A DNA stretch of 64,000 bases from Rhodobacterales bacterium. Its GTDB lineage: Bacteria > Pseudomonadota > Alphaproteobacteria > Rhodobacterales > Rhodobacteraceae. The notes below the pieces were generated by a model that was not told the DNA's origin, ran no database searches, and worked only from the letters and a program-made list of their open reading frames with translations. Shown one piece after another: positions 6,028 through 64,000 of the stretch; the stretch's first letter is position 1, and each line of letters starts with the position of its first letter. The stretch is from positions 27,831-91,830 of the forward strand of contig PDRW01000034.1 in the NCBI GenBank assembly GCA_002746935.1, read 5' to 3'. Position numbers and translations under genes: made by a program.

Positions 6028-7409
6028 GACCGGCGGCGCTCCCGGATCAGCGCTTCCAGCGCGCCGAGATCGTTCGCCACCCGCGTGAGCCGCTCTTCAC
6101 GGTCGAACAGATCGGCCATGGCGGGCGGAAGCGGCGCCTCGACGCCGCAGGCGTCCTTCACCGCGGCCGGAAACTTCGCCGGATGGGCGGTGGCCAGCGT
6201 GATCATCGGGGTGGCGCCGAGGTGTTCGTCGGCCACTTTCACCGCCACCGCCGAATGCGGACAGATCACCTCGCCAGTGGTCTGGTGGATCCGCCGGATG
6301 GTCGCCATGGTCTCGGCCTCGCTGGCGGAGCCGGACGCGAACTGGTCGCGCAGGAAACCGATGGCGCCCTGAGAGATGGTGAAGCCGCCTTTCGCGAGGT
6401 CGGCCATCTGGCCGGCCACCGCGCTGCCGTCGCGGCCATAGGCGTCGAACAGCACGCGTTCGAAATTGGACGAGACCTGAATATCCATCGACGGCGAGAT
6501 CGAGGGCACCACCTCCGCCGTGGTATAGGCGCCGGTCCGCAGGGTGCGGTGGAGGATGTCGTTCTGGTTCGTGGCGATCACCAGCTTTTCGACCGGCAGG
6601 CCCATCCGGCGGGCGATATAGCCCGCGAAGATGTCGCCGAAATTCCCCGTGGGCACGGTGAAGCTCACGGGGCGCATCGGCGCGCCGAGCGAGGTGGCGG
6701 CGGTGAAGTAATAGACCACCTGCGCCAGCACCCGGGCCCAGTTGATCGAGTTGACCCCGGCAAGCTTCACCTCGTCGCGGAAGGCGAAATGGTTGAACAT
6801 GTCCTTGAGGCGCGCCTGAGCGTCGTCGAAAGTGCCGTCGATGGCCAGCGCATGAACGTTGGCCTCATCGGGCGTGGTCATCTGCCGGCGCTGCACCTCC
6901 GACACCCGGCCGTGCGGGTAGAGGATGAACACATCCACATTGTCGAGCCCGCGAAACGCCTCGATCGCCGCCGACCCGGTATCGCCCGACGTGGCACCGA
7001 CGATGGTGATCCGCTCGCCGCGCTTCGCCAGCGCCGCCTGAAACAGCTGGCCGATCAGCTGCATGGCGAAATCCTTGAACGCCAGCGTCGGCCCGTGGAA
7101 CAGCTCCAGCAGGAAGTGGTTGGGGCCGAGCTGGGTGAGCGGGGCGCGGGCCGGATGGTCGAACCCGGCATAGGCCCGGGCGATGATGCCGCTGAGCTCG
7201 TCATCCGTGAAACTGTCGCCGATGAAGGGCCGCATCACCCGGAAGGCGGCCTCCTCATAGGGCAGACCGGCAAGGGCGGCGATGGCCTCACCGGTCATGG
7301 CCGGAATGCCCTCCGGCACGTAAAGCCCGCCGTCACGGGCAAGCCCGGTGAGCATCGCCTCTTCAAAGCTCAAGACCGGGGCCTGTCCACGGGTCGAGAT
7401 ATAGCGCAT
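6024..7409 (-). CDS. thrC: Threonine synthase
   Basis: PLP enzyme converting O-phospho-L-homoserine to L-threonine and phosphate, the last step of threonine synthesis, in the cytoplasm. 461 aa, normal for the proteobacterial (class II) form. It begins MRYISTRGQAP, the family start. The PLP lysine lies in GPTLAFKDFAMQ near residue 110, and the phosphate-binding loop is FTVPTGNFGDIFAGY. It is the first gene of a three-gene operon, overlapping the M16 peptidase by 4 bases. Confidence 0.97.
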   Translation of the reverse strand: MRYISTRGQAPVLSFEEAMLTGLARDGGLYVPEGIPAMTGEAIAALAGLPYEEAAFRVMRPFIGDSFTDDELSGIIARAYAGFDHPARAPLTQLGPNHFLLELFHGPTLAFKDFAMQLIGQLFQAALAKRGERITIVGATSGDTGSAAIEAFRGLDNVDVFILYPHGRVSEVQRRQMTTPDEANVHALAIDGTFDDAQARLKDMFNHFAFRDEVKLAGVNSINWARVLAQVVYYFTAATSLGAPMRPVSFTVPTGNFGDIFAGYIARRMGLPVEKLVIATNQNDILHRTLRTGAYTTAEVVPSISPSMDIQVSSNFERVLFDAYGRDGSAVAGQMADLAKGGFTISQGAIGFLRDQFASGSASEAETMATIRRIHQTTGEVICPHSAVAVKVADEHLGATPMITLATAHPAKFPAAVKDACGVEAPLPPAMADLFDREERLTRVANDLGALEALIRERRRS

Positions 7410-7561
7410 CGTCCTGTCCTCGTCTGCTCCGGGGCTTCATACGCCAAAGCGCAAAGCCTGTCATCACGATCCATCGGGCCGCGGGCATAATCCCGTGATG
7501 ACAGAACCGGGAGGCCGCCGGGCACAGGTTCATGCCACCGGAAGAGACCGGAAGGGGCGCG

Positions 7562-31852: not shown

Positions 31853-32143
31853 CTCGGGGCTCCTCTTCCGCAGCCTATGGCGTTTGACGAAATACCTGAC
31901 ACAAAGAGCATCACCTAACGCGTTGAAACCTATGATTTCAGGCAGCGTCAGGTGAGTCAGGTTTTCGCATGACGCTTTATATGAGCAAACCGGAAGCGGA
32001 TTTCCAGACATGTCGTGCCCTGCCGGCCGGCCTCCGGGGCGGCACCGATCCGGCCCCCCCTGCATGGTCCCCGCCCCCTTGCACCGCCTCCGGGATTGGG
32101 GCACCAACAGGTGAAAGGCAAGCGCGGGACGAAGGGATTACCA

Positions 32144-33115
32144 ATGGACAAGGGCATGAAACCGACCGAAGACATCTCGGTCCGCGAGGCTTTCGGCATC
32201 GACACCGGCATGATGGTCAAGGGCTTCGAGGAGCCGGGCGACCGGGTGCCGGAGCTCGACCCGACCTACAAGTTCGACCCCGACACCACCCTCGCCATCC
32301 TCGCCGGCTTCGCCCACAACCGCCGGGTGATGATCCAGGGCTATCACGGCACCGGCAAGTCGACCCATATCGAACAGGTCGCCGCCCGGCTCAACTGGCC
32401 CGCCGTCCGCGTCAACCTCGACAGCCACATCTCGCGCATCGACCTCATCGGCAAGGACGCGATCAAGCTGCGCGACGGCAAGCAGGTGACCGAGTTTCAC
32501 GAGGGCATCCTGCCCTGGGCGCTGCGCAACCCGGTCGCCATCGTGTTCGACGAATACGACGCCGGCCGGGCGGACGTGATGTTCGTGATCCAGCGGGTGC
32601 TGGAGCATGACGGCAAGCTGACCCTGCTGGACCAGAACGAGATCATCACCCCGCACAAATATTTCCGCCTGTTTTCCACCGCCAACACGGTGGGTCTGGG
32701 CGACACCACCGGGCTCTACCACGGGGTGCAGCAGATCAACCAGGCGCAGATGGACCGCTGGTCGCTGGTGGCGACGCTGAACTACCTCAGCCACGACGCG
32801 GAAGTGTCGATCGTGCTGGCCAAGGCGCCGCATTTCAACACCGAGGCCGGGCGGCGCCAGGTGAGCCAGATGGTGTCGGTCGCCGATCTCACCCGCACCG
32901 CCTTCATGAACGGCGACCTCTCGACGGTGATGAGCCCGCGCACGGTGATCAACTGGGCCTGGAACACCGAAATCTTCCGCTCCGTCGGCTATGCCTTCCG
33001 GCTCACCTTCCTCAACAAATGCGACGAGCTCGAACGCCAGACCGTGGCCGAATTCTACCAGCGCTGCTTCGACGAAGAACTGCCGGAAAGCGCGGCCAGC
33101 ATGAGCCTGGGGTGA
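32144..33115 (+). CDS. cobS: Cobaltochelatase subunit CobS
   Basis: AAA+ ATPase of the aerobic CobNST cobalt chelatase, which inserts cobalt into hydrogenobyrinic acid a,c-diamide in cobalamin synthesis. 323 aa. Walker A is [13 protein letters not shown], Walker [10 protein letters not shown], and the sensor region is [11 protein letters not shown]. The ATG at 32144 follows AAGGG. The next gene overlaps its stop (TGATG). CobT is also encoded in the window but far away on the other strand (55.6-57.5 kb); CobN is not in the window. Confidence 0.97.
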
Positions 33116-47436: not shown

Positions 47437-47763
47437 GACCGCCCCGGAGGCGCCTCTCATCCACTCGCATTCACCACATACACGGCGACATACACGACGC
47501 TGCGTTGAGGGGCGATCGGGATTCGGCCCTGAAGATTCCCTGGCACCGGGATCTTCGCGATGTCCGAAACCCTCCCCGCCCCTCTGCCGGAAACGGTCCG
47601 GCCACGGTCCGGACCGGGCAAGACGCGGCCAGACAAGCCTCCGGGGCGGAAACCACCTCGGTTGGAAAAGACCGGTCCCGCCGACGCAATGCAACGGAAC
47701 ACCCCTGACGCCATGTGCACTCCCGGTGTTGACGCGAAGGCAAAACACCCCCACTCACGCCCC
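47437..47763. other. Intergenic stretch without recognisable gene
   Basis: About 327 bases between two plus-strand genes. A plus frame open from 47560 continues into the acetyltransferase but has no ribosome binding site or family match. TTGACG near 47731 could be a weak -35. Nothing else seen. Confidence 0.4.
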
Positions 47764-48603
47764 ATGACAAACCCGGCTGCGCGTCCCACGGTCAGCTGCG
47801 AACTGACCCGTTTCGAGGCAGAGCATCTCGAGAGCGCGGTTGCCCTGTCGCAGGCAACCGGATGGGCGCATCGCGCCGAAGACTGGGCAATGCTCCTGTC
47901 CCTGTCGCATGGGCTTGTCGCAATTCACGCGGGGCGGGTTGTCGGCACGGCCCTGCGCGCGGACTTCGGGCACGGAATTTCGACCGTCAGCATGGTGATT
48001 GTCGATGCGGCCCTGCGCGGTCAGGGGTTGGGGCGCAGGATCACAACGGCGGTCATCGGCGATGCGCCGGGGGCGCTCCGGCTGGTGGCAACGGCATCCG
48101 GCAAACCGCTGTATGAGACGCTGGGTTTCGAAACGGTCGGGAGGGTTGCCACGGTCCGGGGGATTGCGCGGGCCGCCGGTGCGCTCCCGGGCATCCGACA
48201 CGCGCGCGCCGAAGACCTGCCCCGGATCGCGGAGCTTGAAAGCGAAAGCTTCGGTGGCGACCGCAGCGCGCTGGTCGCCTGGTTCCGGACCAACGCAAGC
48301 CTTGCGGTGAGCGGGCGCAGCGGTGCTATCAGGGGGTTTGCCGCCAGCCGCCGGTTCGGCAACGGGCATGTGATCGGTCCGGTCGTGGCGCAGAGCGCCG
48401 GTGAGGCGCTGGCTCTGGTCGCCCATCTGGCCGATGCGTTGCAGGGGCAATCCGTGCGTCTGGATGTCAGCGAAGGGTCTGGCCTTTTGCCGGGACTGGA
48501 ACAGATCGGCCTCAGGGCGGGCTGTCCCGCGCCGGTCATGCAGCGCGGAACGGTGTCGGCCACCTCCGCGCGGCACGCTTTGGTCAGCCAGGCACTGGCC
48601 TGA
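47764..48603 (+). CDS. GNAT family acetyltransferase, two-domain
   Basis: 279 aa with two GNAT-type halves. Residues 10-130 carry an acetyl-CoA-binding loop VDAALRGQGLGRRITTAV. The C-terminal half (about 140-270) starts at IRHARAEDLPRIAELESESFGGDR and resembles a second, probably degenerate, GNAT fold as in other Rhodobacterales relatives. The substrate is unknown. The ATG at 47764 gives the typical length; upstream in-frame ATGs are possible. Followed by the cobalamin riboswitch region. Confidence 0.85.
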   Translation: MTNPAARPTVSCELTRFEAEHLESAVALSQATGWAHRAEDWAMLLSLSHGLVAIHAGRVVGTALRADFGHGISTVSMVIVDAALRGQGLGRRITTAVIGDAPGALRLVATASGKPLYETLGFETVGRVATVRGIARAAGALPGIRHARAEDLPRIAELESESFGGDRSALVAWFRTNASLAVSGRSGAIRGFAASRRFGNGHVIGPVVAQSAGEALALVAHLADALQGQSVRLDVSEGSGLLPGLEQIGLRAGCPAPVMQRGTVSATSARHALVSQALA

Positions 48604-48678
48604 CACCGCTGAGCCGCCCCGCGCCCCGCGTATTTCCGGCTTGCCTTGAGATACCCGACAAATTACCTAGAAATGGCT

Positions 48679-48851
48679 TCGGTTCCGGTGTGCGCACCGG
48701 ATGAAAAGGGAACGCAGTGCGGCCTGATGGCCAAGTCTGCGGCTGCCCCCGCAACTGTCAGCGGCGAGCCTGGCGGAAATACCACTGGCGCGGCCCACGC
48801 GCCGGGAAGGTCCGCGCAAGCGATGATCCGCAAGCCAGGAGACCTGCCGGA
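48679..48851 (+). promoter_or_regulatory. Cobalamin (B12) riboswitch
   Basis: The conserved core elements appear in order: AAAAGGGAAC, GCTGCCCCCGCAACTGT, CACTGG, GGGAAGG, GCGATGATCCGCAAGCCAGG and AGACCTGCC. The last is the B12 box, which pairs in adenosylcobalamin-bound RNA. It precedes the substrate-binding protein gene of an Opp/Nik-type ABC transporter by about 230 bases. The remaining leader to 49067 includes several GC-rich stem candidates (possible expression platform), and AAGGAGG at 49068-49074 is the ribosome binding site of the next gene. The expected effect is repression when cobalamin is abundant. Confidence 0.93.
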
Positions 48852-49082
48852 GAGATCATCCTGTCCGGGTGCGGGGCGTGCCCGGGGCAACGGTTCATCC
48901 CGTCGCGGTGGCACAACTCATCGTCTGCGAGGGGCACCCTTCGAAGACAGCTAAAATGCCGTTGACGGTCTGACAGGCGCAGACCGGGCAATGGGCGGTT
49001 GCAAAAGGCGGCCTTGCGCCGGCGCGGAGCGTCGCGCGGGCCCGGCTGCACCGGCACATCGGACACTAAGGAGGAACCCGAG

Positions 49083-50606
49083 ATGTCCCTTTTCTCAAGA
49101 TTTGCAATGACGGCCCTCGTCGCGCTGGCCCCCGCTGTTTCGGCGCTGGCCCAGGAGGGCAGCCTCACGATTGCCTCGAGCTACGGCCCCGAAACTGAAG
49201 TTCCCGATCCGCGCGCCGGGCATAACGGCTGGATCTCGAACCAGGCCGGGGTGACCGAAACCCTGATGGGGATCGACTATGATCTGAACCTCTATCCGCG
49301 CCTGGCCGAAAGCATCGAGCAGGCCGGCCCGACCACGTGGCGGGTGACCCTGCGCGAGGGCCTGAGCTTCCACGATGGCACCCCGGTGACGGCACAGGCC
49401 GTCATTGACGCCTTCGCGCCGGTCTCGCAGGAGGGCAACCCCGCCCACAACGGCCGCGTGGCCAGGCTGCTGGATCTGGCGGGGATGTCCGCCGACGGCG
49501 ACCGCGTGGTGGTGTTTGAAACCAACAGCCCGAACGCGGCCTTCCCCTGGACCCTCTCCGAACCGGGGCTCGCGGTGCTTGGCGCCAGCTCGGACGCCTA
49601 TCCGATCAATGCCACCGGCCCGTTCGTGTTCCGCGAAGCGGTGCCCGAACAGCTCTACCGCGTCGAGGCCAATGCGGATTACCGCCTCGGCGCGCCGGGT
49701 CTGGCAGACGTCAGAATCGTCTATTCGAACGATCCCGCCGCCAATGCGCTGGCTTTCGAGGCCGGCGAGGTGGATATGGTCATCAACTATCCCGAAACCG
49801 ATTTCGCGCGGATACAGGAAACCGGCGCGCTGGGCTTCTCGGCCCCGACCGCGCGGCTGTATTTCTACACGGTGAATGCCGCCAGCGGCCCGATGGCCAA
49901 TCCGCTGATCCGCCGCGCGGTGTCGCTGGCGATCGACCGCCAGGGCATTGTCGAGGCGGCGCTTTCGGGCGTGGCGGGCGTGCCCGCGGGCACGGTCTTC
50001 CCCGCCGGCAAGGCCTGGGCGGCAGACATCCCGGCAGCCCATGACACGGCACAGGCCGAGGCGCTGCTGGCCGAAGCCGGCGCGGTCAAGGAAGCTGGCC
50101 AGTGGATGCTGGATGGCGAACCGCTCGAGATCGACATCGTGACCTATTCCGGCCGCGCGGCGCTCGCCCCGACCGCCGAGTTGACGCAAGCCTTCCTGCA
50201 AGCCCTTGGCATCGCGGCGAATGTGAGCGTGGGCGAATACGGCGCCGGTGCCGATGCGATGGCGGCGGGCGAGGCGGACATGTTCCTGCAAGCCTGGGTG
50301 ATGACCCCGCAGGGCGACCCCGGCGCGGTTCTGGAAACCCTGCTGAAATCCGATGGCGGCTCGAACGCCGGCCACTACGCCAACGCCGAACTCGACGCGC
50401 TGCTGGAAAAGGGCCGGTCGAGTTTCGACCCCGCGGCGCGCGAAGCGATCTATGACCGGATCCAGCAGATCATCGCCGCCGAGGCCGCGTTGATCCCGGT
50501 CTTCCATGTCAGCCAGCTGGTGGTCGCCAGGCCCGGCCTGACCGGCTATGCGGTCCACCCGACCGAGACCTACTGGATCACCCACGAAACGAAGTTCGCT
50601 GAATGA
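49083..50606 (+). CDS. ABC transporter substrate-binding protein, Opp/Nik type, under B12 riboswitch
   Basis: Periplasmic solute-binding protein (cluster C, peptide/nickel family), 507 aa. The signal peptide is MSLFSRFAMTALVALAP with a cleavage site around ALA/QEG. Family segments are RLAESIEQAGPTTWRVTLRE, GLSFHDGTPVTAQAV and IRRAVSLAIDRQGIVE. AAGGAGG at 49068-49074 supports the ATG. It is first gene of a five-gene operon whose members overlap by 1-8 bases. Because the riboswitch controls it, cobalt or a corrinoid (or a precursor) is the likely ligand; the sequence itself does not tell. Confidence 0.93.
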   Translation: MSLFSRFAMTALVALAPAVSALAQEGSLTIASSYGPETEVPDPRAGHNGWISNQAGVTETLMGIDYDLNLYPRLAESIEQAGPTTWRVTLREGLSFHDGTPVTAQAVIDAFAPVSQEGNPAHNGRVARLLDLAGMSADGDRVVVFETNSPNAAFPWTLSEPGLAVLGASSDAYPINATGPFVFREAVPEQLYRVEANADYRLGAPGLADVRIVYSNDPAANALAFEAGEVDMVINYPETDFARIQETGALGFSAPTARLYFYTVNAASGPMANPLIRRAVSLAIDRQGIVEAALSGVAGVPAGTVFPAGKAWAADIPAAHDTAQAEALLAEAGAVKEAGQWMLDGEPLEIDIVTYSGRAALAPTAELTQAFLQALGIAANVSVGEYGAGADAMAAGEADMFLQAWVMTPQGDPGAVLETLLKSDGGSNAGHYANAELDALLEKGRSSFDPAAREAIYDRIQQIIAAEAALIPVFHVSQLVVARPGLTGYAVHPTETYWITHETKFAE

Positions 50607-51286
50607 CGCTTCATGTGTCCGGCCTGAGCGCGGTGCGTTCGGGCCGGACCATTCTTCACCCCACATCGCTGGACATCGCCCCGGCGGCGCGGATCGGGCT
50701 GGTCGGGGCGTCGGGGTCCGGCAAATCCACGCTGGGACATGCGCTGGTGGATGCCCTGCGCGCGCAGGGCAGGCGCGTGGCCCATGTGCCGCAAAGCCCG
50801 GACGAAGCGCTCGACCCGCTGCGCTCGATGCGGTTTCACTGGCGCGAGGCGGAGGCGGCGCTGGGCCTGCGCCATGACGCCACGCGCCAGCAGGATCTGT
50901 TCGGGGCGCTGCGGATCGGCAATGGCGATCTGCGCAAACGCCCCTGGGGCTGGAGCCGCGGGATGCAGCAGCGTTTCGTCATCGCCATGGCGCTGCTGGG
51001 CTCGCCCGAGCTGATTGTGCTGGACGAACCCACCTCGGCGCTCGATCCGGTGGTGGCGGCGCTCACGATGGACCTTCTGGACCGCTTCCTGGCCGGGCGG
51101 GACACGGCGATGCTGCTGATCACCCACGATCTCGGCCTGGCGGCGCGGCGGGTGTCGCGGCTGATGGTCATGGAGGGGGGACGGATCGTCGAGACAGCCG
51201 GGACTGGGACGCTCCTGAACGCCCCCCGAACCGAGGCCGCCCGCGCCCTGTCGGCGCACAGATGCTGGTTGGCGGTCTCATGCTGA
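50603..51286 (+). CDS. ABC transporter ATP-binding protein (B12-regulated importer, first)
   Basis: 227 aa. Walker A is GASGSGKSTLG, Walker B LIVLDEPTSALD, and the H-loop lies in LITHDLG. The signature motif reads WSRGMQQR in place of LSGGQQQR: Ser-Gly-Gly is Ser-Arg-Gly, an unusual change at the ATP-sandwich interface. It overlaps the binding-protein stop by 4 bases (ATGA). It pairs with the next ATPase as a heterodimer. Confidence 0.92.
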   Translation: MTLHVSGLSAVRSGRTILHPTSLDIAPAARIGLVGASGSGKSTLGHALVDALRAQGRRVAHVPQSPDEALDPLRSMRFHWREAEAALGLRHDATRQQDLFGALRIGNGDLRKRPWGWSRGMQQRFVIAMALLGSPELIVLDEPTSALDPVVAALTMDLLDRFLAGRDTAMLLITHDLGLAARRVSRLMVMEGGRIVETAGTGTLLNAPRTEAARALSAHRCWLAVSC

Positions 51287-52005
51287 GGGTGGAAGACATG
51301 ACCGTGCGGCGCGGCACTGTCACCGCGCTGGAAGGCATCTCGCTCGCCATCCCCCCGGGCCGGACGCTGGCCGTGGTCGGCGAAAGCGGCGCCGGCAAGA
51401 CCACGCTGATCGCCGCCATCCTCGGCCTGCTCAGGCCCGCGGCGGGCACGATCCTGTGGAACGGAGCCCCAGCCCCGCGCTGCCGCCCCGCGCTGGTGAT
51501 GCAGGAGCCGCGCGCCGCCTTCAACCCGGGCCTGCCGCTGCGCCGCTCGGTGATGGAGCCGGTGGTTGCGCGCAAACTGCCCCTGCCCGGGGAGCGGCTG
51601 GAGCGGCTTTGCGCCGAACTGGACCTGACGCCCGACCTCCTTGACCGCAAACCCGGTGAAATTTCCATCGGCCAGGCCCAGCGGGTGGGCATCCTGCGGG
51701 CGCTGATCGCCTCGCCACCGCTGATCCTGTTCGACGAACCCCTTTCGGCGCTCGATGCGGTGACGCAGAAACGCACCGCAAGGCTGATTGCCGGGCTGCA
51801 ACGCGAGGAAGGCTTCGCCGCGCTGATCGTCACCCATGATCTGGGATATGCCTGTGCCTTCGCCGATGACATCGCCGTTCTCAGGGCCGGGCGGATCGAG
51901 GAGCTCAGCACCCCGGACGCCTTTGTCGCCGGACCACGGACAGAGTATGGCCGCAGCTTGCGCGACGCGGCCATCGCGCTTGGCGCCCTGGAGGAAGCGG
52001 CATGA
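51280..52005 (+). CDS. ABC transporter ATP-binding protein (B12-regulated importer, second)
   Basis: About 241 aa. Walker A is GESGAGKTTLI, Walker B LILFDEPLSALDA, and the H-loop is in LIVTHDLG. The signature motif is ISIGQAQR rather than LSGGQ. The ATG at 51280 starts the usual MLRVEDMTVRRG, overlapping the previous stop by 7 bases; an upstream in-frame ATG at 51262 is possible. It overlaps the next permease by 4 bases. Confidence 0.92.
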   Translation: MLRVEDMTVRRGTVTALEGISLAIPPGRTLAVVGESGAGKTTLIAAILGLLRPAAGTILWNGAPAPRCRPALVMQEPRAAFNPGLPLRRSVMEPVVARKLPLPGERLERLCAELDLTPDLLDRKPGEISIGQAQRVGILRALIASPPLILFDEPLSALDAVTQKRTARLIAGLQREEGFAALIVTHDLGYACAFADDIAVLRAGRIEELSTPDAFVAGPRTEYGRSLRDAAIALGALEEAA

Positions 52006-52940
52006 TCCGGGCGGTTCTGGCCCTGACCCTGCGCGCGCTCGTGGTGGTCAGCGGCGCGGCGCTGGTGACCTTTGTGCTCTTGTGGAACGCGCCGGGCGAT
52101 CCGGCGCTGGCGATTGCGCTCGCGCGCTTCGATACCATCGTCCCGGCGGATGTGATTGCGCAGGTCCGCGCCGAGGCCGGGCTGGACGCCGGGTTCTGGC
52201 CTGCGTTCAGGGCGTGGATCGGGCCGCTGATGGTCGGGGATCTTGGCCGCTCGTCGGTGACCGGCCGCGAGGTCTGGCCCGACCTGCTGCGGGCGATCTC
52301 CTACACCGTGCCGCTGGCGCTGGCGGGGCTGGCCATTGGCCTGACGATCGCCCTGCCGCTGGCCGTGGTGGCGGCGCGCAAACCGGGCAGTCTTCCGGAC
52401 CGGCTGGCCATCGCGCTGGCCTCGACGGGCGCGGCGATCCCGGCCTATTGGCTGGGGCTGCTGCTCATCCTGCTGTTTGCGGTGCAACTGCGCTGGCTGC
52501 CGGCGATGGGGGCGCGCACGCCGATGCATCTGGTGCTGCCGGCGCTGACGCTGGGGCTTGGCGTGGCGGCATCGCTCACACGGATCATCCGTTCGGGCAT
52601 TCTCGAAGCACGCGGACAACGCTTCCTGCCCGCCTTTCGCCGCCGCGGGGTCGCCCGCGGCGCGATCGAACGCGACCACGTCGCCCCGCACGCGGCCATC
52701 CCGGTGATCACGGTCCTGGGGCTGGAACTGGCCTTCCTGCTGGAAGGCGCGGTCATGGTCGAGGTCATTTTCGGGCGGCCCGGTCTGGGCGGCTTTCTGG
52801 TTCATGCGATCTCGGCCCGGGATTTTCCGAAGGTGCAGGCCGTCGTTTTGCTGACCGCGCTTCTGTTCGTGGTGGTCAACCTCGTCATCGACCTGGCCTA
52901 TCAGCTTCTCGACCCACGGATCGGAGAACACGATGCGTAG
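52002..52940 (+). CDS. ABC transporter permease, DppB/NikB type (B12-regulated importer)
   Basis: 312 aa with about six membrane helices. Family segments are the N-terminal LRALVVVSGAALVTFVLLW, PGDPA, GDLGRSSVTG, and a C-terminal GLELAFLLEGAVMVEVIF then GRPGLGGFLVHAISARDFP. The coupling loop reads LEARGQRFLPAFRRRGVARG; its usual conserved residues (AR.KG) are altered, as R-R-R-G-V. The ATG overlaps the upstream stop by 4 bases. Confidence 0.93.
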   Translation: MIRAVLALTLRALVVVSGAALVTFVLLWNAPGDPALAIALARFDTIVPADVIAQVRAEAGLDAGFWPAFRAWIGPLMVGDLGRSSVTGREVWPDLLRAISYTVPLALAGLAIGLTIALPLAVVAARKPGSLPDRLAIALASTGAAIPAYWLGLLLILLFAVQLRWLPAMGARTPMHLVLPALTLGLGVAASLTRIIRSGILEARGQRFLPAFRRRGVARGAIERDHVAPHAAIPVITVLGLELAFLLEGAVMVEVIFGRPGLGGFLVHAISARDFPKVQAVVLLTALLFVVVNLVIDLAYQLLDPRIGEHDA

Positions 52941-53721
52941 CGTTTTCAGCCTTGCGGCGGTGTTCCTCGCACTGGCACTGTTCGGCCCGGTGCTGGCGCC
53001 GCATGACCCGGCCACCATCGACATCCCGAACCGTCTGAGCGGCCCCACGGCCATATGGCCGCTGGGCACCGATGCGATGGGGCGCGACATCCTCTCGCGC
53101 CTGCTCTGCGGGGCGCGGTGGTCGCTGGGGCTCGCCTTCGTGATCTCGGTCATCGGGCTGGTGCTGGGCACGCTTGCGGGCCTTGCGGCGGCACAGGGCG
53201 GCAGGCTGACCGACTGGATCGTCATGCGCACCACCGATACCTTCCTGGCCTTTCCCGAACTGGTCGCCGCGGTGGTGATCGCCGGGCTTCTGGGCGCCGG
53301 GACCGGCAGCCTGATCCTTGCGCTGAGCACCGTCGGCTGGATGCGCTACGCCCGTGTGGCGCGCGGGATCGGGCTCACGCTGAAAAGCCGCGGCTATGTC
53401 GTGCAGGCAAAGCTCGCGGGCCTTTCGCCGCTTGCCATCCTGCGCTGGCATTACCTGCCCGCGCTCATGCCCTCGCTGACCGTGGTCTGGACCGGCATGT
53501 TCGCCCGCGCCATCCTCGGCATTTCGGCGCTCGGCTTCCTCGGCTTCGGCGTGCAGCCGCCGCTGCCGGAATGGGGAACGATGCTGCTGGATGCGCGCAT
53601 CCACATGCGCTCGACACCGTTGCAAATGATCTGGCCGGGCCTCGCGGTGGCGCTCAGCGTGCTGGCCATCAACCTCGCCGGAGATGCGCTGCGCGACAGC
53701 CTGGCGGAGCATCCGGGCTGA
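52933..53721 (+). CDS. ABC transporter permease, DppC/NikC type (B12-regulated importer)
   Basis: 262 aa with five to six membrane helices. Conserved parts are PLGTDAMGRDILSRLLCGAR and the coupling loop VVQAKLAGLSPLAILRWHYLP. The C-terminus is GFGVQPPLPEWGTMLLDA. It overlaps the preceding permease by 8 bases and ends the operon, 15 bases before the convergent M24 peptidase gene. Confidence 0.93.
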   Translation: MRSVFSLAAVFLALALFGPVLAPHDPATIDIPNRLSGPTAIWPLGTDAMGRDILSRLLCGARWSLGLAFVISVIGLVLGTLAGLAAAQGGRLTDWIVMRTTDTFLAFPELVAAVVIAGLLGAGTGSLILALSTVGWMRYARVARGIGLTLKSRGYVVQAKLAGLSPLAILRWHYLPALMPSLTVVWTGMFARAILGISALGFLGFGVQPPLPEWGTMLLDARIHMRSTPLQMIWPGLAVALSVLAINLAGDALRDSLAEHPG

Positions 53722-55632: not shown

Positions 55633-57501
55633 TTATCCCGCCTTGCGGATCCCGAACACCCGCGCCCGCGCCCGCGGGTCGGGGTCGAACAGCCCGGCGA
55701 GCTGTTCGGTGATCGCGCCCGCGAGCTGCTCGGCGTCGGTGATCGTCACCGCCCGGTCGTAATAGCGCGTCACGTCATGGCCGATGCCGATGGCGAGCAG
55801 TTCCACCTGACGGCGGCGTTCGACGAGGTCGATCACGTCGCGCAGGTGTTTTTCGAGAAAATTGGCCGGGTTCACGCTGAGGGTCGAATCGTCCACCGGG
55901 GCGCCGTCGGAAATCACCATCAGGATCTTGCGCGCCTCCGGCCGGGCCACCAGACGCCGGTGCGCCCATTCCAGCGCCTCGCCGTCGATGTTTTCCTTCA
56001 ACAGCCCCTCCTTCATCATCAACCCGAGGTTCGCGCGGGTCCGGCGCATCGGCGCGTCGGCGGACTTGTAGATGATATGGCGCAGATCGTTGAGCCGGCC
56101 CGGGGTTTGCGGGCGGCCTTCGGAGAGCCAGCGTTCACGGGCGCTGCCGCCCTTCCAGGCGCGTGTGGTGAAGCCGAGGATCTCGGCCTTCACGTCGACA
56201 CGCTCCAGCGTGCGCGCCAGCACATCCGCGGTGATCGCGGCAATGGAGATCGGGCGGCCGCGCATCGAGCCGGAATTGTCGATCAAGAGCGTCACCACGG
56301 TGTCGCGGAACTCGGTGTCCTTCTCGATCTTGAAGCTCAGCGGCGTGGTCGGGTTCGCCACCACCCGCGCCAGCCGCCCGGCGTCGAGAATGCCTTCCTC
56401 GCGGTCGAATTCCCAGGAGCGGTTCTGCTGTGCCTGCAACCGGCGCTGGAGCTTGTTGGCCAGCCGCGACACCGCGCCCTTGAGCGGTTCGAGCTGCTGG
56501 TCGAGATATTTGCGCAGCCGTTCGAGCTCGGCGGGGTCGGCGAGCTCTTCGGCGCAGATTTCCTCGTCATTGGTGGTGTCGAAGATGGTGTAATTCGGGT
56601 CGGCCTCCGAAGGCGGCGGGGGCGCGGGGAGTTCGGCATCGGGCGCGGCTTCGGGCAGATCGGCCTCTTCGTCCGATTCGCTCTCGGCGAGATCGTCCAT
56701 GGTGACCCTGGCTTCGGCCTGATCCTGCTGCTCGTCCCGGGCCTGTTCGGCCTCGGCCTCCATGTCGTCGGCGCTGTCGGCGCCATCGTCCTGCTGGTCC
56801 TGTTCCTGCTCTTCGGGTTCGGCCTCCTGGTCTTCGGCCTCGTCGGCGGCGTCCGGGTCGTCGCCGAGCTGGTCGCCATAGCCGAGATCGGCGATCACCT
56901 GGCGGGCGAGACGGGCGAAGGCGGCCTGATCGGCGAGGGCGTTGCTCGCACGGGCGAAGGTGGCGCCGGCCTGGGTCTCGATGAAGCCGCGCCAGAGGGC
57001 GAGCAGATTGTCGGCCCCGGCGGGCGCCGGCCGGCCGGAGACGGTTTCGCGCAGAAACAATGCCGCGGCCTCGGCGAGCGGCGCCTCTTCGGTGGAGGTC
57101 ATCCTGTCCCAGCCGCGTTTGGTGGCCTCGTCGGCGATCTTGTGGTCGATATTGGAGGCAGTGCCCGGCATCAGCCTGGCCCCCACCGCCTCGCAGCGTG
57201 CCCGTTCCATCGCGTCGTAGAGCGCCAGCGCGGTGTCGCCGGCGGGGGCGAAACGGGCGTGGGTTGCGGCATCGTGGTGCTTGTGGCGCAGCGCCAGCGC
57301 GTCGGCAACACCGCGCGCCAGCAGCACCTCGTCGCGCGCCATGCGCCGGGTGATCTGCGGCAGACGCAGGGTTTCGCCCGACAGGCCGGACGGGTCGACC
57401 GTATAGGTGACGCTCAACTCGCGGTCGTCGGCGATCACCCGTGTCGCCTCGGCCAGGGCCTTCTTGAACGGGTCGGCGGGGTTGTCGGCGGCTTTGCTCA
57501 T
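55633..57501 (-). CDS. cobT: Cobaltochelatase subunit CobT
   Basis: Partner of CobS in the aerobic cobalt chelatase, 622 aa. N-terminal helical domain (to about 210), a strongly acidic Glu/Asp/Gln-rich linker (about 213-290, e.g. [18 protein letters not shown]), and a C-terminal von Willebrand factor A domain with the metal-ion site [15 protein letters not shown]. The ATG at 57501 gives [12 protein letters not shown], the known start; the frame running further upstream reads through a gene remnant. It is not next to cobS, as it often is in relatives, and no cobN is in the window. Confidence 0.96.
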
Positions 57502-57962
57502 GGGCGTGAAGATGGGCGAAACCCAAGGGAAGGGCAAGCGGGCCCGGCATTCCCGGCATGAAACGGTGCAAACAGGATGCTGCTGCCGATCAGCCCCGCC
57601 AGAAGGCCGGATTTCACGCTGATTTCGGGCAGAAGAAAACCGCGAAACGCCACTTCTTCGCTCAGACCCTGCACGAAGAACAGGCCGAAAATGGCGAGCC
57701 ACATGCCCCAGGCTAAGCTCTGATCGTTCAGCGACACGGCCTGGGTGCCCGGAAGCACGCCCACCAGCACGCAAAAGGAAACCATCGCCAGCCCGATGAC
57801 GATCCCCTTGCCGTAATGCGCCAGCAGGTTTTGCACCGAAAACCCAGGACTGCCAAAGGCATGCCCAAGCAGAAACCGCGCCCTTGGCAGCACCACCAAC
57901 AGGCTGAAGCGATCCGCCGGTGAGTCCATCCCCGATCGCCTGGAGACTGGCGATCGCCGCAA
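57498..57962 (-). pseudogene. CPBP-family intramembrane protease remnant
   Basis: 154-aa frame with membrane helices and the CPBP motifs: the first, EEVAFRGF, near residue 100, and the second FAPFHAGN. Intact family members are about 220-300 aa with further helices on both sides. Here the C-terminal helices after the second motif are missing where cobT begins (ATGA overlap), and hydrophobic sequence that fits an N-terminal helix ([14 protein letters not shown]) lies in a different frame just upstream (about 57940-57996). A truncated and frameshifted gene is therefore most likely, though a short functional product cannot be excluded. Confidence 0.6.
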
Positions 57963-58099
57963 TGCCGGCGAACAGCCCGGCGATGCGGCACGGCACGGTC
58001 AGGCCCGGCCCCGGGGCGCGGGTGCCGTGGTCAGCCGGTCCAGCGCCCGGGTCAGGGGCCTGACGTCATCGCCTTGGGGGCTGTCCGGCGTGTTTCGCC

Positions 58100-62039: not shown

Positions 62040-62457
62040 TGAACCGCGTCGGGTTTGCCGGAGCCGATCTGCAAACACCTGCCGATTGCCCCGTCCATGT
62101 TCCACGATCACATGGCCATGCGGGCGAACCCTGACCTGCTGTCGGATCGGGCCAGGCGCGACAAGGTCTGTGGCGTTCGCAAGGTCTGGCACCAGATGAA
62201 GCGGGAAGGTTTCGATGTCGCCAGATGCGCCGCGTGACGCGGCTGATGACGGATTCGGGCCTGTAGGGTGGGATCCGTGGCAAGAAAGCCAGGACAACGA
62301 TAGCTGACAAGGCGCAGCCATGCCCGCTCGGCAAGGTGAACCCATCGGAAACATCCCGCCAGCAGAGGCCGAGGCAAACCACCACGCAACTCTGGAAACC
62401 CAGACCATGGCGGCGTAACTTGAAGCAACCAGCCTCCGGCAAACCCGGCGCGGTTCA
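62040..62457 (+). mobile_element. Internally deleted IS3-family element remnant with both terminal repeats
   Basis: Ends TGAACCGCGTCGGGTTTGCC (62040) and the inverted counterpart CTCCGGCAAACCCGGCGCGG (62434-62453, ending TTCA at 62457) match over 24 bases with one mismatch. Between them are pieces of orfB in different frames: PICKHLPIAPS and DLLSDRARRDK..YGVRKVW-like (here VCGVRKVWHQMKREGFDVAR, 62058-62237), then GIRGKKARTTIADKAQ with an in-frame stop (to about 62335), then PIGNIPPAEAEANHHATLE ending TAA at 62418. orfA and most of orfB, with the catalytic DDE region, are gone. No clear target duplication flanks the ends. Confidence 0.8.
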
Positions 62458-62587
62458 GTCGGATCGTCAAAGGCCTGGTCACAAGGGATCGTGTTATAGT
62501 GAGATCGGCCACCGTCTTCGCATGAGGCCTGAACGGATACAGAGCGGCATCAGAGCCCTCTACGACAAGCATGGGACAGCGAGGACG

Positions 62588-63118
62588 ATGAACGATTGCA
62601 TAGGGATTGATATTTCCAAAAGCACTTTGGACTGCCACCGGTTGAGCGACGGGGCGTTTGACACGTTCGCCAACACCAAAACCGGGTTTGCGCAGCCGCG
62701 CCGCTGGATTGGAGCGACCGCACCGGCGCGCGTGATCTACGAGGCAACCGGCCCCTATCATGGCGCGTTTGAACGCAGGCTCGCCGGGCATCTGCCTTTG
62801 GTCAAGGTCAACCCGTTGCAAGCCCGCCGCTTTGCCCAGGCGCTCGGAACGCGTGCCAGTGATGAAGGCGCTTTGGCCCATGACATCCTGTGCCCGATCC
62901 CCGGCATCGGTGAACCGACCGCCGCCGCCATTTTGATCGAATGCCCCGAAACCGGGACGCTCGGGCGCAAACAGATCGCCAGCCTTGCAGGCCTCGCCCC
63001 GATGACCCGGCAATCGGGCCAATGGCGCGGGCAGGCGTTCATCCAGGGCGGGCGTAAATTCCTGCGCGATGCGCTCTGCATGCCGGCATTGGTCGCATGG
63101 TCACCAAAACGGGCTTGA
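62588..63118 (+). pseudogene. IS110-family transposase, internally deleted
   Basis: 176-aa frame. The N-terminus MNDCIGIDISKSTLDCHRL and VIYEATGPYHGAFE is the DEDD domain start of IS110. After RFAQALGTRASDEGALAHD the sequence jumps to DILCPIPGIGEPTAAAIL, the C-terminal Transposase_20 domain (GLAPMTRQSGQWRG). Intact members are about 300-350 aa, so roughly half is missing, including part of the catalytic domain. Lies directly after the IS3 remnant. Confidence 0.85.
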
Positions 63119-63210: not shown

Positions 63211-64000
63211 TTACCGCCGCCGCAGCATCCAGATGAAGAACAACCCGCCGACCAGCCCGGTGACGATGCCGATCGGCATGTCTTCCGGCGCCATGATCGT
63301 GCGCGCGGCGATGTCGGCCCAGAGCAGAAACACCCCGCCCGCCAGCGCCGACGCCGGCAACACCCGGATATAATCGCCACCGACCAGCATCCGCACGATA
63401 TGCGGCACCATCAGCCCGACAAAACCGATCATCCCCGAAAACGCCACCATCACCCCGGTGATGATCGCCCCGGCAACAAAGACCGTCAGCCGGAATTTCC
63501 CCACTTCGATGCCAAGCGTCGAGGCGGTCTCGTCGCCGATGGTCATGGCGTTGAGATCGGCCGCGTGGCGCCAGAGCCACAGCCCGACCAGCACCAGCAC
63601 CACCAGCGGGTAGGCAAGATGTGACCATTGCGCGAGGCCGAGCCCACCCAGCATCCAGAACACCACCGTATGGGTGGCCCGCGGATCGCCGAGGAAAATC
63701 AGGATGTTGGCCCCCGCCATGATGACAAAGGACACCGCCACCCCGGCGAGCACCAGCCGGTCGGCGCTGGTGGCGTCGGCCATGCGGGACACGCCGAGCA
63801 CGATCAGCGTCGCCGCCAGCGCGCCGACAAAGGCCAGCAGCGGCACCGTCAGCAGCCCGAGGAACAGCCCGGTGTGCAACAGCGCCAGCACCGCGCCGAA
63901 AGCCCCGCCCGAGGAGATGCCGAGCAGATGCGGATCGGCCAGCGGGTTGCGCGTCACCGCCTGCAAGGCCGCCCCGACCACCGCCAGCCCCGCGCCCACC
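63211..64000 (-). CDS. FecCD-type ABC transporter permease (5' end outside window)
   Basis: Inner-membrane permease of an iron-siderophore/heme/cobalamin-type ABC importer, with the start beyond base 64000. About 262 residues are visible. Typical parts are NPLADPHLLGISSGGAFGAVLAL, VLAGVAVSF, LGIEVGKFRL and GFVGLMVPHIVRMLVGGDY, and it ends FFIWMLRRR. The ligand cannot be told from the permease. Its downstream side faces decayed insertion sequences. Confidence 0.93.
   Translation of the reverse strand, partial: VGAGLAVVGAALQAVTRNPLADPHLLGISSGGAFGAVLALLHTGLFLGLLTVPLLAFVGALAATLIVLGVSRMADATSADRLVLAGVAVSFVIMAGANILIFLGDPRATHTVVFWMLGGLGLAQWSHLAYPLVVLVLVGLWLWRHAADLNAMTIGDETASTLGIEVGKFRLTVFVAGAIITGVMVAFSGMIGFVGLMVPHIVRMLVGGDYIRVLPASALAGGVFLLWADIAARTIMAPEDMPIGIVTGLVGGLFFIWMLRRR

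Follow-up and report, generated by a model that had tools for sequence, protein, structure and literature searches.

The stretch of DNA analyzed here (the window: 64,000 nucleotides of contig PDRW01000034.1, positions 27,831 to 91,830, from assembly GCA_002746935.1 of a Rhodobacterales bacterium, hereafter the source genome) contains a five-gene ATP-binding cassette (ABC) importer of the nickel/peptide type behind a cobalamin (B12) riboswitch. The aptamer, on the plus strand at 48663..48865, matches RF00174 from end to end (positions 1–189 of 189) with 139.3 bits and an E value of 4.7e-35, relative to a gathering score of 31.5, and it is the sole Rfam match that cmscan returns at the gathering threshold within the window. 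The covariance model therefore bears out the canonical B12 riboswitch proposed in the initial annotation, although the locus had been started at 48679, 16 bases too late. The leader between aptamer and start codon (48866..49082, plus strand) contains a GC-rich hairpin at about 48862–48890 and an AAGGAGG motif just 5' of the ATG. Because this leader has no terminator-like site on its sense strand and its fold shows no clear switch, translational and Rho-dependent control are both possible.

The five genes all lie on the plus strand. The first encodes a periplasmic binding protein of 507 residues (49083..50606; PF00496, 231 bits) that starts at the ATG behind the AAGGAGG motif and has a signal peptide recognizable by eye. 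It is followed by a NikD/NikE-like ATPase of 227 residues (50603..51286; PF00005, 58.5 bits; Walker motifs seen by eye), a NikE-like ATPase of 247 residues (51262..52005; PF00005, 86.4 bits) for which an internal ATG at 51280 is a possible alternative start, a NikB/OppB-like permease (52002..52940; PF00528, 113.2 bits) and a NikC/OppC-like permease (52933..53721; PF00528, 75.2 bits). With the starts used, adjacent genes overlap by 4, 25, 4 and 8 bases, and every protein scores above its Pfam cut-off (SBP_bac_5, ABC_tran twice and BPD_transp_1 twice), so that the complete, overlapping Nik/Opp-type operon predicted earlier is indeed present. An SBP_bac_5 protein, two BPD_transp_1 permeases and two ATPases in one operon identify the nickel/peptide (cluster C) class. 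The top NCBIfam matches of all five proteins are nickel-labelled models (Nik or Opp2/Opp5), among them Opp5A_nikA for the binding protein (214.4 bits, cut-off 600) and Opp2B for the first permease (289.4 bits, cut-off 350). Each match falls below its curated cut-off, which places the importer in the nickel/peptide class but not in NikABCDE as NCBI defines it; we rejected a strict nickel importer on these cut-offs. The closest solved chain by sequence, 3t66, is labelled a nickel-binding protein (E 1.7e-35), and chains labelled nickel-binding periplasmic protein, which we take to be Escherichia coli NikA, match at about 1e-24. In Pfam the binding protein matches PF00496 only, with no match to Peripla_BP_2, the BtuF-like family.

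Eight members of this importer family, the window copy included, carry a riboswitch upstream of the binding-protein gene, the others being those of G079, Tropicibacter R16_0 (L046), G403, G282, G546, G779 and G723. Rfam was run on part of the loci, and those with an Rrf2 gene were mostly screened by a regular expression, which missed the G079 riboswitch that Rfam found, so the riboswitch count may be higher. In seven of the eight, a sequence matching a Zur-type box lies between riboswitch and start codon, 65–100 bases before the latter; the window copy is the exception. The score was reached by none of 400 dinucleotide shuffles in each of the seven, in contrast to 180 of 400 for the window leader, and a Zur-type box is present in 0 of 11 control riboswitch leaders (six from the other riboswitches of the source genome, four from a second importer family and one from a ribonucleotide reductase operon).

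The matrix first used for these boxes was trained on ten sites picked by a pattern, with L114 and L125 coming from DUF1826 loci that lack a COG0523 match. With a score of 9 or more required, it marks a site in the 450 bases before the binding-protein gene at 18 of 82 loci (duplicates included), and it has a single match over the 294,257 positions that lie downstream of the gene start. A second matrix, built solely from five printed Paracoccus denitrificans Zur sites and independent of the boxes in the first, scores the seven leaders at 16.7–20.2, its own training sites at 19.7–22.2, the window leader at 1.9, the controls at 7.0 at most and the znuA promoter of the source genome at 13.7. One member of the second importer family (L159) reaches 12.0 with the first matrix at the 5' edge of its riboswitch, outside the control leader. 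At the Ruegeria atlantica locus (L044), inspection by eye shows a riboswitch reduced to its 3' end, together with a Zur-type box, and Rfam makes no riboswitch call there; at other loci, such as L018, L061, L070, L091 and L173, a Zur-type box is present and no riboswitch was found.

The eight riboswitch-bearing members fall into three groups that are 34–46% identical to each other. Since G546 and G779 are congeners and the G079 and Tropicibacter copies are 95% identical, the seven members with both riboswitch and Zur-type box amount to about five independent cases. The window copy, the G079/Tropicibacter pair and L044 belong to a supported clade of seven rows (97/93), along with two Rrf2-led copies and one with neither control. 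On the tree, the riboswitch label needs five changes if L044 is counted as riboswitch-bearing, and dual control may be ancestral or may have been gained repeatedly. The G079 copy seems to be degenerate, as its binding protein matches no further than residue 494 and its first ATPase lacks a match of its own. An open reading frame (ORF) for a GNAT acetyltransferase (47560..48603, plus strand) lies upstream of the window riboswitch, and homologues 47% and 52% identical also precede the riboswitch in G079 and Tropicibacter R16_0, as if acetyltransferase, riboswitch and importer had moved or been inherited as a unit. In G403 (L104, 9550-9721, minus strand), a short ORF that has a ribosome-binding site of its own is seen by eye immediately after the riboswitch hairpin. 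Similar starts are present in G282, G546 and G723, which would fit a leader peptide as the switched element. Tropicibacter R16_0 has another B12 riboswitch at the head of a class Ib ribonucleotide reductase operon (L046, 2059-6075, minus strand; NrdE confirmed, the rest by eye). This operon is oriented divergently to the importer at a distance of no more than 3 kb, so that the two form a small B12-regulon island.

Orthologues of the importer are 69–79% identical and patchily distributed among roseobacter-type genomes, with a riboswitch in few. Searches with P0001 (source genome counted) found them in 8 of 146 genomes at E ≤ 1e-40, with none in six congeners, and in 22 of 394 family genomes at E ≤ 1e-90, and a scan of GTDB contigs returned 61 loci, 60 at 70–79% identity and one at 27%. 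Two binding-protein orthologues lie on roseobacter-type plasmids (CP081100.1, 154845-156365, 73%; NZ_CP123586.1, 145083-146603, 72%), and plasmid carriage may explain the patchy distribution. Neighbours were counted over 66 distinct genes (L040 and L104, like L041 and L105, are duplicates, and L009 is labelled as having neither control despite its riboswitch). With short flanks making these counts lower bounds, at least 38 have an Rrf2 match nearby, at least 24 a COG0523 gene more than 60% identical to the L017 protein and at least 44 DUF1826 and/or DUF6525. The L017 COG0523 protein scores 583.3 bits (cut-off 600) with the model for ZigA, a zinc chaperone GTPase. DUF1826 is present in 27 of 159 family genomes, the source genome not among them; a Zur-like pattern is found at 11 of 30 DUF1826 loci, and the larger stretches examined often show the module with no importer beside it. 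DUF1826 is named among the clusters of Zur-regulated COG0523 genes in a figure legend of PMC2770081.

We rejected the idea that Zur controls every orthologue, as many instead show a divergent gene for an uncharacterized Rrf2-family regulator (in L017 at 7022-7492, minus strand, and likewise in 37 further tree rows) and, near it, a conserved palindrome composed of TAGTAACT, a spacer and AGTTGCGTGA. Within 4 kb upstream, this palindrome is present at 44 of the 82 loci (duplicates included), compared with four matches when 4 kb of mononucleotide-shuffled sequence was scanned once for each locus; scanning one promoter for inverted repeats gave no hit. The Rrf2 gene and palindrome occupy the place held by Zur boxes in relatives, and the regulator may be a metal-responsive stand-in for Zur.

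The source genome, a draft of 2.8 Mb in 94 contigs that is 83.9% complete, has further genes for both B12 and zinc. As noted in the initial annotation, the window itself holds cobS (32015-33115, plus strand; TIGR01650, 573.3 bits, cut-off 558.55) and cobT (55633-57996, minus strand; TIGR01651, 793.5 bits, cut-off 759.05), about 22 kb apart; by eye, no cobT was seen near the importer in relatives among the listed ORF starts, for which no dedicated search was made. Seven cobalamin riboswitches in this genome lead the window importer, a second Nik/Opp-type importer, a DUF4198-CbiM operon of the energy-coupling factor type (its further genes assigned by eye), a BtuF-like protein, a class Ib ribonucleotide reductase and two cobW-cobN loci. 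Four transporter operons, the window importer counted, are thus under B12 riboswitches.

The second Nik/Opp-type importer (contig 91, L021 10306-16245) has a binding protein 28% identical to that of the window and occurs in 5 of 388 family genomes at E ≤ 1e-90 (source genome counted), behind a riboswitch in all five; the end of the gene before it weakly matches 2Fe-2S ferredoxin models (31 bits, below cut-off). The riboswitch-led BtuF-like (Peripla_BP_2) gene is cut by the end of contig 89 (L019 17546-18670), and a BtuC/FecCD-type permease gene (63211-63999, minus strand), which has an IS110-type transposase gene (62336-63118) beside it, is truncated where the window ends on the right. Both proteins have putative F420-0 ABC models as best match, below cut-off, and the two genes may belong to one operon split between contigs. 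The two cobW-cobN loci lie on contigs 40 and 55 (L023 and L024); contig 40 has a lower third-position GC content and could be foreign or contaminating. On the zinc side, a FUR-family gene is confirmed beside a znuA-like gene in a separate Zur/Znu-type locus, where the znu genes were assigned by eye, and the znuA-like promoter carries a Zur-type box by both matrices while lying outside the training set of the first.

From these sequence data, we lean, with some reserve, toward the window importer being a cluster C system that moves Co(II), and possibly Zn(II) as well, in chelated form through the inner membrane. The evidence on its function stops at regulation and neighbourhood. Binding of B12 to the leader would lower expression of the importer, and at low B12 more cobalt would be imported for the aerobic cobaltochelatase (CobN, CobS and CobT). 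In the relatives, the Zur box would mark a second promoter that lies downstream of the riboswitch and escapes its control, and a shortage of either B12 or zinc would then lead to expression; the source genome would have kept only the B12 input at this importer. Cobalt can stand in for zinc, and a cobalt cargo would for that reason explain both inputs, so that cobalt as a single cargo under two alarms is the simplest reading. Given the class of the binding protein, the cargo would be a chelate and not the free ion.

It is quite possible, though we stop short of calling it probable, that this extends to a set of alphaproteobacterial cobalt-chelate importers under tandem controls, in which a riboswitch acts on the distal transcript and a Zur-repressed promoter lies downstream, zinc shortage overrides B12 repression, cobalt serves both corrin synthesis and zinc replacement, and the window copy has lost the zinc input. 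The usual view is that cobalt import serves B12 alone and that zinc-shortage regulons serve zinc; if the proposal is true, an importer wired to the two sensors would provide evidence from genomes that bacteria treat cobalt as a substitute for zinc. Such wiring would make the idea testable in culturable roseobacters with one operon, two promoters and two signals. Nik or Opp labels on operons of this kind can hide another metal function.

Several observations weigh against a cobalt-chelate importer under these controls. The window leader has no Zur box (best score 1.9 with the matrix from published Paracoccus sites), most orthologues have no riboswitch, and four homologues at 30–35% identity have none within 1.5 kb. 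All five proteins fail the NikABCDE cut-offs (NikA 109.9, cut-off 393; NikB 252.2, 447; NikC 254.9, 358.45; NikD 127, 318.7; NikE 140.3, 332.55). Presumably the metal and chelator residues of NikA are Arg137 and His416, and the NikA stretches that we take to form the metal site fall in gaps of its low-identity phmmer alignment with the window protein. Cobalt may also be supplied already, because three other transporter operons of the source genome are riboswitch-led, although one of these is visible only through the gene for its binding protein.

Among the alternatives, a mainly zinc-chelate importer, induced by B12 shortage because replacement enzymes that work without B12, such as MetE, a zinc enzyme, would then need zinc, would suit the Zur-type boxes and ZigA-like genes of the relatives as well as the riboswitch-led ribonucleotide reductase operon that adjoins the importer in Tropicibacter R16_0. 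We nevertheless judge it improbable, as the source genome has its Zur/Znu-type locus and the window importer lacks a Zur box, and as MetE (TIGR01371) is above cut-off in none of the eight riboswitch-bearing genomes, with weak partial matches in two and a source genome only 83.9% complete. CobN is above cut-off in all eight, and the two counts together favour a need for cobalt over a supply of zinc to MetE.

Importing a corrinoid, either cobinamide or another B12 precursor, in the manner of BtuFCD is an unlikely role for the operon. B12 riboswitches often govern corrinoid uptake, and family 5 binding proteins include haem binders (matched chains are labelled Heme-binding protein A), but the Zur-type boxes and the ZigA-like and DUF1826 neighbours of the relatives indicate metal shortage, corrinoid uptake would not relieve a shortage of zinc, and the source genome already has a BtuF-like protein behind its own riboswitch. 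Where the initial annotation had left the choice between cobalt, a cobalt chelate and a corrinoid, we therefore keep the first two as best guess and do not favour the third, since members of the same family are tied to zinc starvation elsewhere (Zur boxes, a ZigA-like GTPase and DUF1826). An ordinary peptide importer that gained its riboswitch by chance rearrangement is no less unlikely than a corrinoid importer: peptide importers are common in this class, and the riboswitch is present in only a minority of the orthologues examined, but riboswitch and Zur-type box recur together in three groups 34–46% identical, which one accident does not explain. A true NikABCDE nickel importer is very unlikely, because the nickel-labelled best matches of the five proteins are all under the Nik cut-offs and a demand for nickel accounts for neither the B12 riboswitch nor the Zur boxes.

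The cobalt-chelate reading has precedents, which we compare here as they are described in abstracts and passages of the papers cited. In Pseudomonas aeruginosa, Zur-controlled cobalt import answers zinc shortage (PMC11481552, PMC13083405), and zinc-starved bacteria import and use cobalt (PMC11481552, PMC13083405, PMC11340326). The Zur-controlled pyochelin-cobalt importer PA2911-PA2914, part of that answer, combines a TonB-dependent receptor with inner-membrane ABC permeases, and its abstract describes no B12 riboswitch (PMC11481552). CbtJKL of Sinorhizobium meliloti, a canonical ABC cobalt importer with a B12 riboswitch (PMC7689651), is an alphaproteobacterial counterpart of what we propose for the window importer, although its binding protein is BtuF-like and that of the window belongs to SBP_bac_5. 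A survey of roseobacter metal transporters lists hupE/ureJ, cbiMQ, cbtAB and corA, and one genome with nikA (PMC4771312).

In Paracoccus denitrificans, each gene of pden1338-1344 was induced more than 8-fold in zinc-depleted medium, and Zur bound the pden1341 promoter in gel shifts (PMC5387054). The cluster combines an ABC importer of the Ni/dipeptide type with a COG0523 gene and two hypothetical genes, a set that resembles importer loci of relatives. Compared by description only, the order in pden1341-1344 (binding protein, permease, permease and one ATPase gene) differs from that of the window, and the passages describe no riboswitch, whereas the window importer has one.

Nik-type importers behind a B12 riboswitch are likewise described for Clostridium tetani and Desulfitobacterium hafniense, whose riboswitch-led NikABCDE systems are exceptions to nickel in a survey (PMC2667541), and for Sporomusa ovata, whose nikA riboswitch was used in a study (PMC9600662). 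All three organisms belong to another phylum; by description, the systems of C. tetani and D. hafniense count as NikABCDE, whose cut-offs the window importer fails, and the passages on all three organisms describe no Zur input, unlike the relatives of the window importer. Among the matches listed from the open-licence literature, no title or abstract opening reports an importer that has both a B12 riboswitch and a Zur site. Because B12-riboswitch control of Nik-type importers is already published for Firmicutes, that control alone is not new; the new part is the riboswitch and the Zur box together in the relatives.

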